This document shows, in pieces, positions 1,515 to 27,130 of a stretch of DNA of 37,629 bases. Under the pieces are notes generated by a model. The model was given only the letters and a program-made list of their open reading frames with translations, had not been told where the DNA came from and searched no databases. The translations under genes were made by a program, and so were the position numbers. The stretch is from Kiritimatiellia bacterium (lineage in GTDB: Bacteria; Verrucomicrobiota; Kiritimatiellia; RFP12; UBA1067), in NCBI GenBank assembly GCA_017525225.1, contig JAFXTB010000157.1, positions 1 to 37,629 of the forward strand. The letters are read 5' to 3'. Each line of letters begins with the position of its first letter. Position 1 is the first letter of the stretch.

Positions 1515-2863
1515 AACCATCCATACTTGTCGTGGACGATGAAAAGAACACGCGCGAGCTGATGAGCCGCGCCCTTTCGGACGACTATGCCGTGACGACC
1601 GCCGCCGACGCGGAGCTTGCGCTGGAGGCCCTCAAGGCCGATCCATCCATCGTGCTGTTGCTTTCCGACATCCGCATGCCCGGGGCCAGCGGCATGGAGC
1701 TGCTGAAGGCCGCCAAGGCGATGCGGCCACAGCTGGCCTGCATACTCCTTACCGCGTATGGAACGGTCGACCAGGCCGTTGAGGCCATGAAGGACGGCGC
1801 CGACGACTTCATAATGAAGCCCGTCAACCTCGATCAGCTCGAGGCCCGTGTAGCCAAGGCGATGGAGACCTCCGCGCTGAAAAGCGAAGTCGCCGCCCTT
1901 CGCAGCCAGCTAAACGAAAAGTACGGTCTGGAGAACATAACGGGCGAATCGGACGCGATGAAGCGCGTGTTCCACCTCGTGCGACAGGCCGCCCCAACGG
2001 ACGCCACCGTGCTCATCCAGGGTCCCAGCGGCACCGGCAAGGAGCTGGTGGCGCACGCCATCCACAGCCTCTCGCCACGTGCCAGCGGACCCTTCATAGC
2101 CGTGCAGTGCGGCGCCCTGCCCGACACGCTCCTGGAATCCGAGCTCTTCGGGCACGAGAAAGGCGCATTCACCGGTGCCATCGCGCGCCAGATCGGCCGC
2201 TTCGAGGCGGCAGACCACGGTACCATCTTCCTCGACGAGATCTCCGAGATAAGTCCCGCCACGCAGGTGAAGCTGCTGCGCGCGCTGGAGACGCGCACCT
2301 TCACCCGCCTCGGCGGCACCGAGGCGATCAAGACCGACATCCGCATCGTGGCCGCCACAAACCGCGATCTGCGCGCCTATGTGGACGAAGGCAAGTTCCG
2401 CGAGGACCTGTTCTACAGGCTGAACGTGGTGGACATCACGCTACCGCCGCTACGCGAACGCCCTGGCGACATACCACTTCTGGTCTCGCGCTTCCTAGAC
2501 GAATTCTCGGCGAAAAAGGGCGGACTTGTCACCGGCATCACGCCGGCGGCCATGAAGTACCTTGAAGCCTGGCGCTGGCCTGGGAACGTTCGCGAGCTGC
2601 GCAACACCATCGAGAAGATGGTCGTGCTGTCATCGGGCGGCAAGCTGGATGTGGAGGATGTGCCGGAGCAGCTGCGCGCCGCAGGCAATCCGTCCGGTTT
2701 CTCGTCGGCCGGAACGCTTGGCGAGACTGAGAAGGCCAAGATACTGGCCACCCTCAAGGAGACCGGCGGCAACCGTACCCAGGCCGCCAAGCTGCTGGGG
2801 ATATCGCGCCGTACCATCTATCGCAAGCTGGATGAGTATGCCGCAGAAGGAGAAAAGATATGA
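1511..2863 (+). CDS. Sigma-54-dependent response regulator, NtrC family
   Basis: 450 aa starting at the ATG that overlaps the kinase stop; the longer open frame from 1394 lies inside the kinase and is discounted. The receiver domain has acidic pair D9/D10, phospho-acceptor D53 (LLLSDIRMPG), T81 and K103. The AAA+ domain has Walker A GPSGTGKE (171-178), the sigma-54 contact loop GAFTGA (218-223) and Walker B GTIFLDE (237-243). The C-terminus carries a Fis-type helix-turn-helix (TQAAKLLGISRRTIYRKL). It activates RNA polymerase-sigma-54 after phosphorylation by the upstream kinase. I saw no convincing -24/-12 sigma-54 promoter in the window, so its targets are probably elsewhere. The stop overlaps the next ATG by ATGA. 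Confidence 0.95.
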   Translation: MKPSILVVDDEKNTRELMSRALSDDYAVTTAADAELALEALKADPSIVLLLSDIRMPGASGMELLKAAKAMRPQLACILLTAYGTVDQAVEAMKDGADDFIMKPVNLDQLEARVAKAMETSALKSEVAALRSQLNEKYGLENITGESDAMKRVFHLVRQAAPTDATVLIQGPSGTGKELVAHAIHSLSPRASGPFIAVQCGALPDTLLESELFGHEKGAFTGAIARQIGRFEAADHGTIFLDEISEISPATQVKLLRALETRTFTRLGGTEAIKTDIRIVAATNRDLRAYVDEGKFREDLFYRLNVVDITLPPLRERPGDIPLLVSRFLDEFSAKKGGLVTGITPAAMKYLEAWRWPGNVRELRNTIEKMVVLSSGGKLDVEDVPEQLRAAGNPSGFSSAGTLGETEKAKILATLKETGGNRTQAAKLLGISRRTIYRKLDEYAAEGEKI

Positions 2864-3453
2864 GTTCCACCACACCTGGCATTAAAGGCTTTAAGGGCCT
2901 TATGGGCCTTGTAGGCCTCATTGCCCTGCTGGCTACTGGCGCGGAGAACGCGCCGCGGCCCGAGAACGGCATCCGCAAGATTGTGGTTCCCTGCACTCTG
3001 TGCGCAAGAAGCCCGGAAGGCAGAGGGCGGCTGAAGCTGCATCCTCCAGACCACGGCCAGCACAAGGGCTCCATCAACGCCAAGGACCATTGGGATGTGC
3101 GCATGGTTTGCCCGCTCTGCGCCGGCAAGGGCCGCCGCACCGTATACCGCCTAGAGCTGCAGCATACCCTGGACGATGTGCCGCCATGCCGCGTCTGCGG
3201 ATGGTCCGGCGTGGAGAAGTGCCGCAAATGCAAGGCCACCGGGCTGGTGGCCTGCAACGCGCGCGAATGCAAGAACGGATGGGTGGTCAGGAAGAACGAG
3301 GTTGGAAGCGGACGGACAAACCGCCACTATAACATGTCGGTGGAACCATGCCCCACATGCCAGGGCGTCGGTCGCGTGGTCTGCCCGGACTGCCGGGGCC
3401 TTGAAGGCACCCCCTGCCGCGCATGCAGCGGAATGGGAAGGAAGGTACGCTGA
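2860..3453 (+). CDS. Exported Cys-rich protein with DnaJ-type zinc-finger repeats
   Basis: 197 aa. Residues 1-28 look like a signal peptide or membrane anchor (GFKGLMGLVGLIALLATGA); its core is encoded by a 9-bp tandem repeat. The rest is a series of CxxC pairs: CTLC, CPLCAGKG, CRVCGWSG, CRKCKATG, CPTCQGVG, CPDCRG and CRACSGMG. These match the CxxCxGxG zinc repeats of the DnaJ cysteine-rich domain, but there is no J domain. Such repeats bind zinc and unfolded or thiol-containing protein; the function here is unknown. It is locked between an NtrC regulator (4-nt overlap) and a Ser/Thr kinase (1-nt overlap), so it probably belongs to the same signalling unit. Confidence 0.8.
   Translation: MSSTTPGIKGFKGLMGLVGLIALLATGAENAPRPENGIRKIVVPCTLCARSPEGRGRLKLHPPDHGQHKGSINAKDHWDVRMVCPLCAGKGRRTVYRLELQHTLDDVPPCRVCGWSGVEKCRKCKATGLVACNARECKNGWVVRKNEVGSGRTNRHYNMSVEPCPTCQGVGRVVCPDCRGLEGTPCRACSGMGRKVR
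2881..2925 (+). repeat. 9-bp tandem repeat, five units, in a signal-peptide coding region
   Basis: Units ATTAAAGGC, TTTAAGGGC, CTTATGGGC, CTTGTAGGC, CTCATTGCC, in frame with the gene at 2860 and encoding IKG-FKG-LMG-LVG-LIA. A related array lies at 26600-26671 in an unrelated gene. Confidence 0.75.
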
Positions 3454-15359: not shown

Positions 15360-16571
15360 TCATTCTCCTTTGTTCGTTTCCACCTTGAAAGCCGATATCA
15401 CGGCGCAGACATCCTTGGAGTAGTTGCCGCCGTCGACCACCTCCATCGTGATGCCGTCGCCGCCGGCGTCGCGCGCGATCTCAAGAAGCCTCTGCACCGC
15501 GTTGGCCGGCGAGATGCCGAGCCGCTTAGCGTACTCGGGGTATCCCGGCCGCCCCGTGAAGTTGTACGACATGATGGGGAAGTACACCTTCCCCCGGCCT
15601 ATGGCCCGCACCTCGCGTACCACGTCGCCGTAGATCTTCGCCGTGGAACCCCATGGATCCTTCCAGTCGGGGTCGACGCTGGAGACCACCACCGCGTCCA
15701 CCACGCCCGCGCGGAGAAGCTTCCGCCAGTCCACGGCGCGTTCGGTCCAGTTCCAGTCGCTGTCGCGTCCGGCGTGCTCTATCGCGATCAGCAGCTCCAC
15801 GGGCCGTCCCGTGCGCGTGATGCGCGCGCGCATCTCCGTATAGTAGCGTTCGACGTATTTCGCCACGAGCGCGAGCCAGCGCGGGTCACGCGACTTATCA
15901 GGGGGATCGCAGCCGAAGAGCCGCCTCCACTCGTCCTCCATCGGCTTCACATATTCCAGCGAGGGCGTCCAGCCGCCGGAACGGCAGAGATCGAGATAGA
16001 TCATCTGCGGCCTCATCGCCAGCAGCTCGTCGAACAGCCGCAGCTTGTGCTCGCGCACCTCGTCGTACGCGAGCGAACAGCGGCCTGGCCACGGCGTGCC
16101 GCCGTTCCTGCAGCACCAGTACTGCGGATGCTCCAGGTTCCACGGCGAGAGGGTCCAGCTCTCAAAGTGGTTCTCCTCCGTGGTGAGATGTATCCCGAAG
16201 CGCACGCCGCGCCGGGCGCATTCGTCCGCCGCCGCCTGGATGAGGTTCACCCCGCAATCGTCGAACCGCACCCACCCGCGCACCGTCTCGCTCAGCGGGA
16301 TGCGCCGCTTGTCGAGCGGCGGCTCCTTGAGCGGCAGCGCCTCCTCGGCGCTCGGATAGCGCGGGATCGCTCCGGACTGGTTGCGCCATAGGATCGTCGT
16401 GGCGCCGGTCTTGAGCACGTTCTCCAGTATGCGTATCGATCCTTCCGCCGTCTCCGTCTCATGGAGGTGGGGATAGTCGAAGCTGTCGATGTAGGCGATC
16501 TTCTCGAACTTCGCCCAGGCCGACGCGCACGCAAGCGCGATCGCCGCCGAAACAACAGACTGCAGCCTCAT
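15360..16571 (-). CDS. Secreted TIM-barrel putative glycoside hydrolase
   Basis: 403 aa from the ATG that overlaps the previous stop (ATGA). Signal peptide MRLQSVVSAAIALACASAWA. The rest has the alternating strands expected of a beta/alpha barrel: EKIAYIDSFDYPHLHETETA, ARRGVRFGIHLTTEENHF, MIYLDLCRSGGWTPS, ELLIAIEHAG, VVDAVVVSSVDPDW, KVYFPIMSYNF and DGITMEVVDGGNY. The overall look is that of the GHL/family-10-like hypothetical glycosidases (GHL10 group), but I cannot assign a substrate or catalytic pair. Operon position, between a PD40/lectin protein and a sialidase, supports a role in glycan breakdown in the periplasm or at the cell surface. Confidence 0.65.
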   Translation of the reverse strand: MRLQSVVSAAIALACASAWAKFEKIAYIDSFDYPHLHETETAEGSIRILENVLKTGATTILWRNQSGAIPRYPSAEEALPLKEPPLDKRRIPLSETVRGWVRFDDCGVNLIQAAADECARRGVRFGIHLTTEENHFESWTLSPWNLEHPQYWCCRNGGTPWPGRCSLAYDEVREHKLRLFDELLAMRPQMIYLDLCRSGGWTPSLEYVKPMEDEWRRLFGCDPPDKSRDPRWLALVAKYVERYYTEMRARITRTGRPVELLIAIEHAGRDSDWNWTERAVDWRKLLRAGVVDAVVVSSVDPDWKDPWGSTAKIYGDVVREVRAIGRGKVYFPIMSYNFTGRPGYPEYAKRLGISPANAVQRLLEIARDAGGDGITMEVVDGGNYSKDVCAVISAFKVETNKGE

Positions 16572-26452: not shown

Positions 26453-27130
26453 GTGGACGCAATCAAGAGAAACATCCTCCTGGCGGTGACGCCTTTCGCC
26501 ACATGGATCGCCATGCAATCCCTGTTGCCGGCGACGGCGTGGGCGTATGCCGCCAGGACCGTCGCCACCGCGATCGTGGGGATCATCTGCCTTGCCGCAT
26601 TCAAGGGCTTTAGGAATTCCAAAGCCCTGAAGGACATCGCAGGCATCAAGGGTCTCATGGGCCTTGGATGGGGTCTGGCCGTGGCGGCGCTCTGGATATT
26701 CCCCGACTCCTTCGAATGGTACCGCACCTGGCTCTGCTGGCCGCTGGGCTCGCTCCCCGAGACCGCTGTGGCTTCCCCGTACGATCCTGCCGTCTGCGGC
26801 TGGACGCTCACCATCGTCAAACTCGCCGGAAGCGCATTCGTGATCGCGCCCGTAGAGGAGGTGTTCTTCCGCTCGTTCCTCTACAGGTGGCTGCAGAACG
26901 GGAACTATGCGTCCGTGCCGCTTTCGCGTTTCGACTTATCAGCCTTCCTCTGGACGGTCCTCCTTTTCACGCTCGAGCACGACCGTCCACTTGTCGCCGC
27001 ACTGGCTGGCGCGATCTACGGCATGCTGGCCGTGCGGCACGGCCTTGGATGTGCCATCGTCGCGCATGTGGCAACGAATCTCGCACTCGGTCTCCATGTG
27101 GTGTACCACGGCGTCTGGGGGTTCTGGTGA
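26453..27130 (+). CDS. CPBP/CAAX-type intramembrane protease, exosortase-associated kind
   Basis: 225 aa, polytopic. Conserved protease motifs: EE135-136 and R140 in VEEVFFRSFLYRWL, H176 in FTLEHDR, and H205/N209 in AHVATNLALGLHVV. The order and the closing GVWGFW fit the CAAX prenyl protease-related proteins (TIGR03008) often encoded beside EpsH/exosortase, though no exosortase is in the window. The family's role is probably membrane-protein processing. Residues 49-74 (FKGFRNSKALKDIAGIKGLM) are encoded by a 9-bp tandem repeat and fall in a loop between membrane spans. GTG start, no Shine-Dalgarno, placed at the predicted transcription start. The stop lies 1 nt before the rluD start. Confidence 0.85.
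   Translation: MDAIKRNILLAVTPFATWIAMQSLLPATAWAYAARTVATAIVGIICLAAFKGFRNSKALKDIAGIKGLMGLGWGLAVAALWIFPDSFEWYRTWLCWPLGSLPETAVASPYDPAVCGWTLTIVKLAGSAFVIAPVEEVFFRSFLYRWLQNGNYASVPLSRFDLSAFLWTVLLFTLEHDRPLVAALAGAIYGMLAVRHGLGCAIVAHVATNLALGLHVVYHGVWGFW
26600..26671 (+). repeat. 9-bp degenerate tandem repeat, about eight units, in the CAAX protease gene
   Basis: Units TTCAAGGGC, TTTAGGAAT, TCCAAAGCC, CTGAAGGAC, ATCGCAGGC, ATCAAGGGT, CTCATGGGC, CTTGGATGG, in frame. The ATCAAGGGTCTCATGGGCCT stretch closely resembles units 2-4 of the array at 2881-2925. Confidence 0.7.

Follow-up and report, generated by a model that had tools for sequence, protein, structure and literature searches.

Degenerate 9-bp tandem repeats inside coding genes of a Kiritimatiellia bacterium, with a probable worn copy in a CAAX-type protease gene

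The gene for a CAAX prenyl protease-related protein in a Kiritimatiellia bacterium contains a run of degenerate 9-base units that resembles a clearer tandem array located in another gene of the same contig, raising the question of whether the run belongs to a dispersed repeat family that has entered coding genes, or is simply loop sequence that happens to look like one. The window, that is, the whole stretch of DNA analysed (37,629 nucleotides), corresponds to contig C55 in a genome of 4.2 Mb (labelled G000), and no Rfam family matches within it at the gathering threshold. The features concerned are as follows.

26453-27130, + strand: CAAX prenyl protease-related gene, TIGR03008 family, 225 aa
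26603-26665, + strand: degenerate 9-mer array-like stretch of seven in-phase units, protease residues 51-71 (KGFRNSKALKDIAGIKGLMGL)
2860-3453, + strand: gene for a 197-aa cysteine-rich protein, weakly DnaJ-CXXCXGXG-like (PF00684 25.8 bits, below the cut-off of 32.7)
2884-2919, + strand: clear 9-mer array of four units, residues 9-20 of the 197-aa protein (KGFKGLMGLVGL)

The host protease scores above the curated cut-off of TIGR03008 (118.3 bits, cut-off 81.05) and reaches 40.6 bits against PF02517. Its residues E135 E136 R140, H176, and H205 N209 are invariant across 28 aligned sequences (30 loci minus L051 and L055) and form the pattern EE...R, H, H...N, which we take to be the Rce1-type catalytic motif. 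According to the AlphaFold2 model (mean pLDDT 92.6), residues 51-64 make up the connection between the membrane helices 29-49 and 65-86 and are folded into two short helices (mean pLDDT 66 for residues 51-60), while residues 65-71 are the start of the helix 65-86. The sequence-only reading had counted eight 9-mers at 26600-26671; in-phase units are present, but there are seven of them, at 26603-26665, translated as K-G-F-R-N-S-K-A-L-K-D-I-A-G-I-K-G-L-M-G-L, and two are unlike the consensus. From the first to the seventh, the units score 13.0, -11.7, 6.1, 1.4, -5.5, 5.2, and 8.6, with about five of the seven consensus-like, and the units on either side (26594 and 26666) score negatively. Tandem Repeats Finder (TRF) did not report 26603-26665.

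The family to which this stretch might belong is readily visible elsewhere in the genome. A degenerate 23-base pattern has 33 matches in the own genome against 3 for the reversed pattern, compared with 3 and 3 in the same-genus genome G001; the pattern is also enriched in two more distant relatives, with other units (23 vs 2 in G047 and 11 vs 0 in G031). A sequence-only profile, R1, was trained on 12 stretches taken from 10 array loci and excluding both window arrays, and its match counts are lower bounds because 150 candidates were scored per genome, out of 278 to 1156. At E <= 0.001, R1 finds at least 26 matches in the own genome and at least 1 (in G015) in 30 related genomes taken together, one of them of the same genus. 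The array near position 2881, which thus stands outside the training set, is recovered with 29.4 bits (E 2.6e-8 in the window and 2.9e-6 genome-wide); it constitutes the N-terminus of the 197-aa protein, which is signal-peptide-like by inspection, and the N-terminus of the same-genus orthologue is different and shorter. With E up to 0.033, at least 51 matches in the own genome fall into 32 loci, 28 of which lie inside open reading frames (ORFs), these locus counts and the phase counts given below covering 51 of the 94 R1 rows, with site 1 of leucyl-tRNA synthetase (LeuRS; E 0.092) among the 43 left out. Further arrays, which the sequence-only reading had expected from a genome search, were therefore found, and its proposals of a dispersed, coding-compatible family and of an array in an unrelated gene at 2881 both hold, the family being larger than it had supposed and the gene being that of the cysteine-rich protein.

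Named Pfam or NCBIfam families are matched by 21 of the 28 host ORFs. The hosts include ClpX, adenosylhomocysteinase (AhcY), LeuRS, pyruvate carboxylase B/OadA, UDP-galactopyranose mutase, ThrC, DXS, GatA, CoaE, a MiaB-like radical SAM protein, a second Rce1-like protein, dihydrouridine synthase, gyrase/topoisomerase IV A, a GATase_5 protein (presumably PurL-type), a Mur ligase, a DEAD helicase, DsbD, a PMT_2 protein, a nucleotidyl transferase, a GH28 protein, and a V-type ATPase subunit I, the last with 317 bits, below the model cut-off of 799. To our knowledge, conserved bacterial genes invaded in frame by repeats are known chiefly from Rickettsia and Wolbachia. The open-licence literature, in which a description could be missed, yielded no account of coding arrays of 9-bp units in the core genes of a single bacterium.

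Several arrays add length to the enzymes that contain them. ClpX is 27 aa longer at its array than the G001 orthologue and 24 to 30 aa longer than all 20 orthologues that cover the site (rows L261 and L269 lie outside it). AhcY is 23 aa longer than its G001 counterpart, which aligns to residues 12-156 and 184-496, the two segments being separated by just 12 bases. LeuRS carries two arrays (rows L249 and L235, one per site, lie outside the array site): site 2 is longer by 21 to 47 residues than in all 21 orthologues covering it, and site 1 by 8 to 22 residues than in 20 of 21, the 21st orthologue, that of G013, being itself 8 residues longer there because of another repeat; G001 has only a LeuRS fragment. 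When compared with the best solved structures, ClpX 309-346 and AhcY 155-185 find no counterpart between the segments that do align, and in UDP-galactopyranose mutase, DXS, and ThrC the array regions face gaps of 10, 7, and 12 residues. Net insertion is thereby shown for ClpX, AhcY, and LeuRS, the ClpX and AhcY arrays being clear insertions relative to the same-genus orthologue.

Such insertions might be kept for the peptides that they encode, as flexible K/N-G-x linkers that help the host proteins. This explanation would agree with the finding that 27 of the 29 ORF arrays, and those of 20 of the 21 family-supported genes, are read in one codon phase, AAN-GSC-NYT, with the placement of arrays where orthologues differ in length, and with the collagen-like tail of the DEAD helicase (PF01391 27.0 bits, just under the cut-off of 27.2). 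The two exceptions to the common phase are the second array of orf646, a gene with one array in phase 0 and another in phase 2 that is counted as phase 0 at the gene level, and a phase 2 match close to the start of the GH28 ORF, possibly before the gene. Of the phases outside the common one, one is closed by TAA and one is almost unused. The common phase reads mostly [K/N]-[G/A]-[L/F/V/S/D], the middle codon being G or A since both array orientations occur, and this presence of both orientations argues against selection for the peptide.

The composition of the unit argues against it more directly. The unit is AANGSCNYT, with a self-complementary core, AANGSCNTT. Entropies for positions 1 to 9 are 0.41, 0.44, 1.97, 0.15, 0.96, 0.64, 1.63, 1.13, and 0.53 bits in 136 units of 22 arrays (22 of the 23 listed, without that of the DEAD helicase; six further ORF arrays were also left out), where the array ends, for these statistics as for the scorer, tail fit, and neighbour tests described below, were chosen by looking at the peptide, a choice in favour of positions 1, 2, 4, and 5 that leaves the wobble positions unaffected. 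The fixed positions include wobble positions 6 and 9, the freest include position 7, the first of its codon, and the bases conserved at the wobble positions run counter to the codons that these genes otherwise prefer: GTT encodes 15 of 19 Val in arrays and 75 of 813 elsewhere in those ORFs, TTT 13 of 13 Phe against 68 of 461, and CTT 57 of 63 Leu against 244 of 1054, with a third-position GC of 0.50 in arrays and 0.77 outside. The arrays are conserved at the DNA level, not the protein level, because fixed wobble positions combined with a free first codon position are the reverse of what protein selection produces. Peptide selection is accordingly improbable as the source of the family.

Conservation at the DNA level could also mean that the arrays are putative tandem binding sites, maintained for a protein that recognises AANGSCNTT. 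The self-complementary consensus and the freedom of positions 3 and 7 suit this idea, whereas the motif, counted on both strands, occurs 80 times in 300 kb here versus 100 times in G001 (286 kb) and 106 times in G013 (277 kb); isolated AANGSCNTT binding sites were rejected, with no enrichment outside arrays, and we regard the binding-site explanation as very improbable. A separate peculiarity concerns TTAA, which is scarce (110 on both strands in 300 kb, versus 196 in G001, 286 kb, and 188 in G013, 277 kb) although most array unit boundaries form TTAA; GC content is equal, at 0.618, in the own sample and in that of G013.

How well the protease stretch fits this family depends on how it is scored. 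A phase-locked scorer of seven units, trained on 21 other arrays, was run over about 300 kb of the own genome (L283-L302 plus the window, both strands, 596,754 positions), and the protease stretch, with 17.1, has the fourth highest score of all positions. Only the 2881 array, once on each strand, and the stretch's own reverse strand score higher, making the protease the second-ranked locus in 300 kb, after the 2881 array, where the best unrelated position scores 12.7. The maxima are -15.5 in the reversed sequence, -10.6 in the G001 sample (286 kb), and -6.9 in the G013 sample (277 kb), and when the columns of the model were permuted, 1 of 58 models exceeded 17.1 somewhere in the sample (20.5). 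Seven is the most favourable number of units for the rank of the stretch; with 2, 3, 4, 6, and 8 units, 9, 27, 14, 12, and 2 other positions match it, the 2881 array included. With R1, the two halves of the stretch score 7.3 and 7.2 bits (E 0.31 and 0.33 in the window search), and the stretch is absent from the R1 results for the own genome up to E 10. The pattern that the sequence-only reading saw in common between the protease and the 2881 array is partly confirmed: by the seven-unit test it exceeds chance, and the profile detects it only weakly.

These results have to be weighed against convergence, in which the stretch is no repeat at all but a Lys/Gly-rich loop followed by the start of a membrane helix, which happens to approach the consensus of a family that is real elsewhere. 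The R1 E values of the two halves and the lower rank with other unit numbers are in its favour, as is an exponential tail fit, resting on 8 non-negative sample positions of which some are possibly worn arrays, which expects 0.8 scores like that of the stretch within the sample and 11 genome-wide. T occupies unit position 9 in 2 of the 7 units, versus 125 of 136 in the other arrays, and the stretch is therefore either heavily ameliorated or convergent. Convergence would have to accommodate the second-best locus in 300 kb, the values below -6 throughout the reversed sequence and the G001 and G013 samples, and the codon phase of the stretch, which is that of the other arrays. It is a possibility of some weight, on the unlikely side, and the stretch is probable as an ameliorated member of the 9-mer family. 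On balance, we lean towards reading it as a worn member of a species-specific 9-bp tandem repeat family that entered, and expanded inside, coding genes.

The protease loop in relatives bears on how such a member would have arrived. The sequence-only reading had supposed an insertion in the loop, and this is not supported by the loop length between anchors, which is 48 residues both here and in G001, a point in favour of convergence. In the comparison with relatives that the reading had proposed, other repeats occur at this place in 3 of 27 (64, 72, and 87 residues), the remaining 21 having 37 to 56 residues, in a listing of 28 of the 30 loci (without L048 and L055) where L036, L050, and L053 are mis-anchored. 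If the worn-member reading is right, the stretch may represent an old array that took the place of loop residues. Two g13 genomes, G035 and G026, have a protease loop with a repeat peptide (..GEAALSPL..), and the same peptide is found in the LeuRS site-1 loop of G013, whose own protease loop is without it. The DNA of this peptide contains a perfect, REP-like hairpin, GAAGCGGCG-CTCT-CGCCGCTTC, in frame at loci L034, L035, and L234, and copies with up to three mismatches number 62 in G008, 23 in G013, 5 in G006, 3 in the own genome (control 1), 1 in G022, and 0 in G001. The repeats accepted by the protease and LeuRS loops vary from lineage to lineage. Yet another insertion, long, repeat-like, and rich in Ser, Asn, and Gln, sits in the G049 protease loop (L051).

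Three known systems invite comparison. The Rickettsia palindromic elements (RPEs; Ogata et al. 2000, per review PMC2229807) are single elements of 105-146 bp with terminal inverted repeats, and in both cases repeat DNA lies in frame in genes of conserved proteins as well as between genes, and is apparently tolerated (PMC2229807). The 9-mer arrays share the in-frame position in conserved genes; they consist of degenerate 9-bp tandem units and do not have the 105-146 bp inverted-repeat architecture. The best reading is that the 9-mer family works like RPEs, as in-frame repeat DNA, but is not one of them, being species-specific and built of degenerate 9-bp units. PARCELs are dispersed coding tandem repeats with dyad symmetry, as here, and represent an amphipathic motif of 25 residues in ORFs to which no function is assigned (PMC2996958). 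The arrays here, in contrast, have three-residue units in core enzymes, most of the host ORFs belonging to the named families mentioned above, and do not form 25-residue amphipathic repeats in ORFs lacking assigned functions.

The third comparison, with the GGGNATC-type heptamer repeats of Xanthomonas and Nostoc, gives rise to a further explanation. According to PMC4692102, these are 7-bp, G-tract based repeats, likewise short degenerate tandem units scattered over one genome, and are under-represented in coding regions, whereas 28 of 32 loci here lie in ORFs. The 9-mer arrays might similarly be putative G-quadruplex-forming simple repeats, as GGG recurs at 9-bp spacing in some units. G occupies unit position 3 in only 38 of 136 units, and runs of four GGG tracts should therefore be rare; G-quadruplex simple repeats were rejected, since consecutive G-tracts in every unit are not found, and the explanation is scarcely credible for this genome. 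AARGGCNTT arrays (L069-L182) come from many Tidjanibacter, Muribaculaceae, and other gut Bacteroidales genomes and from some other phyla, among the matches listed. The Tidjanibacter unit is like that of the own genome, and its position 7 is also freest (1.77 bits); its position 3 is mostly G (231 of 267), which would suit G-quadruplexes, but the search pattern restricted this position to A or G. By inspection, many of the arrays in Tidjanibacter and other gut genomes are in short or unlikely ORFs and apparently intergenic. Neighbouring Tidjanibacter units differ by 1.57 mismatches when adjacent and by 2.54 at lag 4 (42 arrays and 267 units among the matches listed, from 37 loci of L069-L148 and none from L149 on, with an extension rule that favours positions 1, 2, 4, 5, 8, and 9); they are thus more alike and drift apart with distance, as slippage gives.

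The coding arrays of the own genome behave differently. Their mean mismatches per 9 bases are 2.32 between adjacent units, 2.34 at lag 2, 2.31 at lag 3, and 2.91 between arrays, and the lack of a rise over lags 1 to 3 is unlike recent slippage. Neighbouring unit pairs common to different arrays number 5, with 4.57 expected (942 of 2000 shuffles reach 5), and block copying was rejected as a general source of arrays, sharing being no higher than with shuffled unit order. One identical 39-bp block with array units and unrelated flanks occurs in contigs C29 and C77 (L204 about 1500 and L208 about 425). Overall, the coding arrays resemble neither products of fresh slippage nor block copies.

A course of events consistent with the worn-member reading can be proposed. 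The 9-bp repeat would arise and spread through a process acting on DNA, and arrays would survive where they are placed in loops or termini and in one codon phase. Selection would then filter the phase and site of arrays, which would themselves be neutral or mildly harmful passengers, and new arrays may be seeded from old ones via slippage or template switching. Inside ClpX, LeuRS, gyrase/topoisomerase IV A, and other core enzymes, the free and fixed positions of the units contradict protein selection. The family offers a natural test case for how essential proteins cope with repeat DNA in their loops and make use of it, and for the seeding of new sites by short tandem repeats.

A wider and more doubtful extension is that each genome in this bacterial family or order has its own coding-compatible repeat, through a lineage-wide process in which variable positions are built in and the same tolerant loops of core enzymes are repeatedly invaded. 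Different repeats do mark different lineages: AANGSCNYT here (in the LeuRS loop and probably the protease loop), the hairpin in g13, and another in G049. If such a process exists, it would continually supply essential proteins with new loop sequence. Arrays of 9-mers with other sequences also occur in G047, G031, G019, G015, G038, and G027, members of the family and order; by inspection, of 12 such arrays in relatives, some are in long ORFs and others apparently intergenic.

The own genome also contains a second 9-mer family, of about GGTTGWGAA (L285, L286, L293, L296, L300, and L302), by inspection mostly outside likely genes. No period-9 consensus of this kind is among the TRF rows of the 286 kb G001 sample. 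In the own genome, the second family lies once in frame in a long ORF (VEKVERVEKVE, L293 about 16317-16363).
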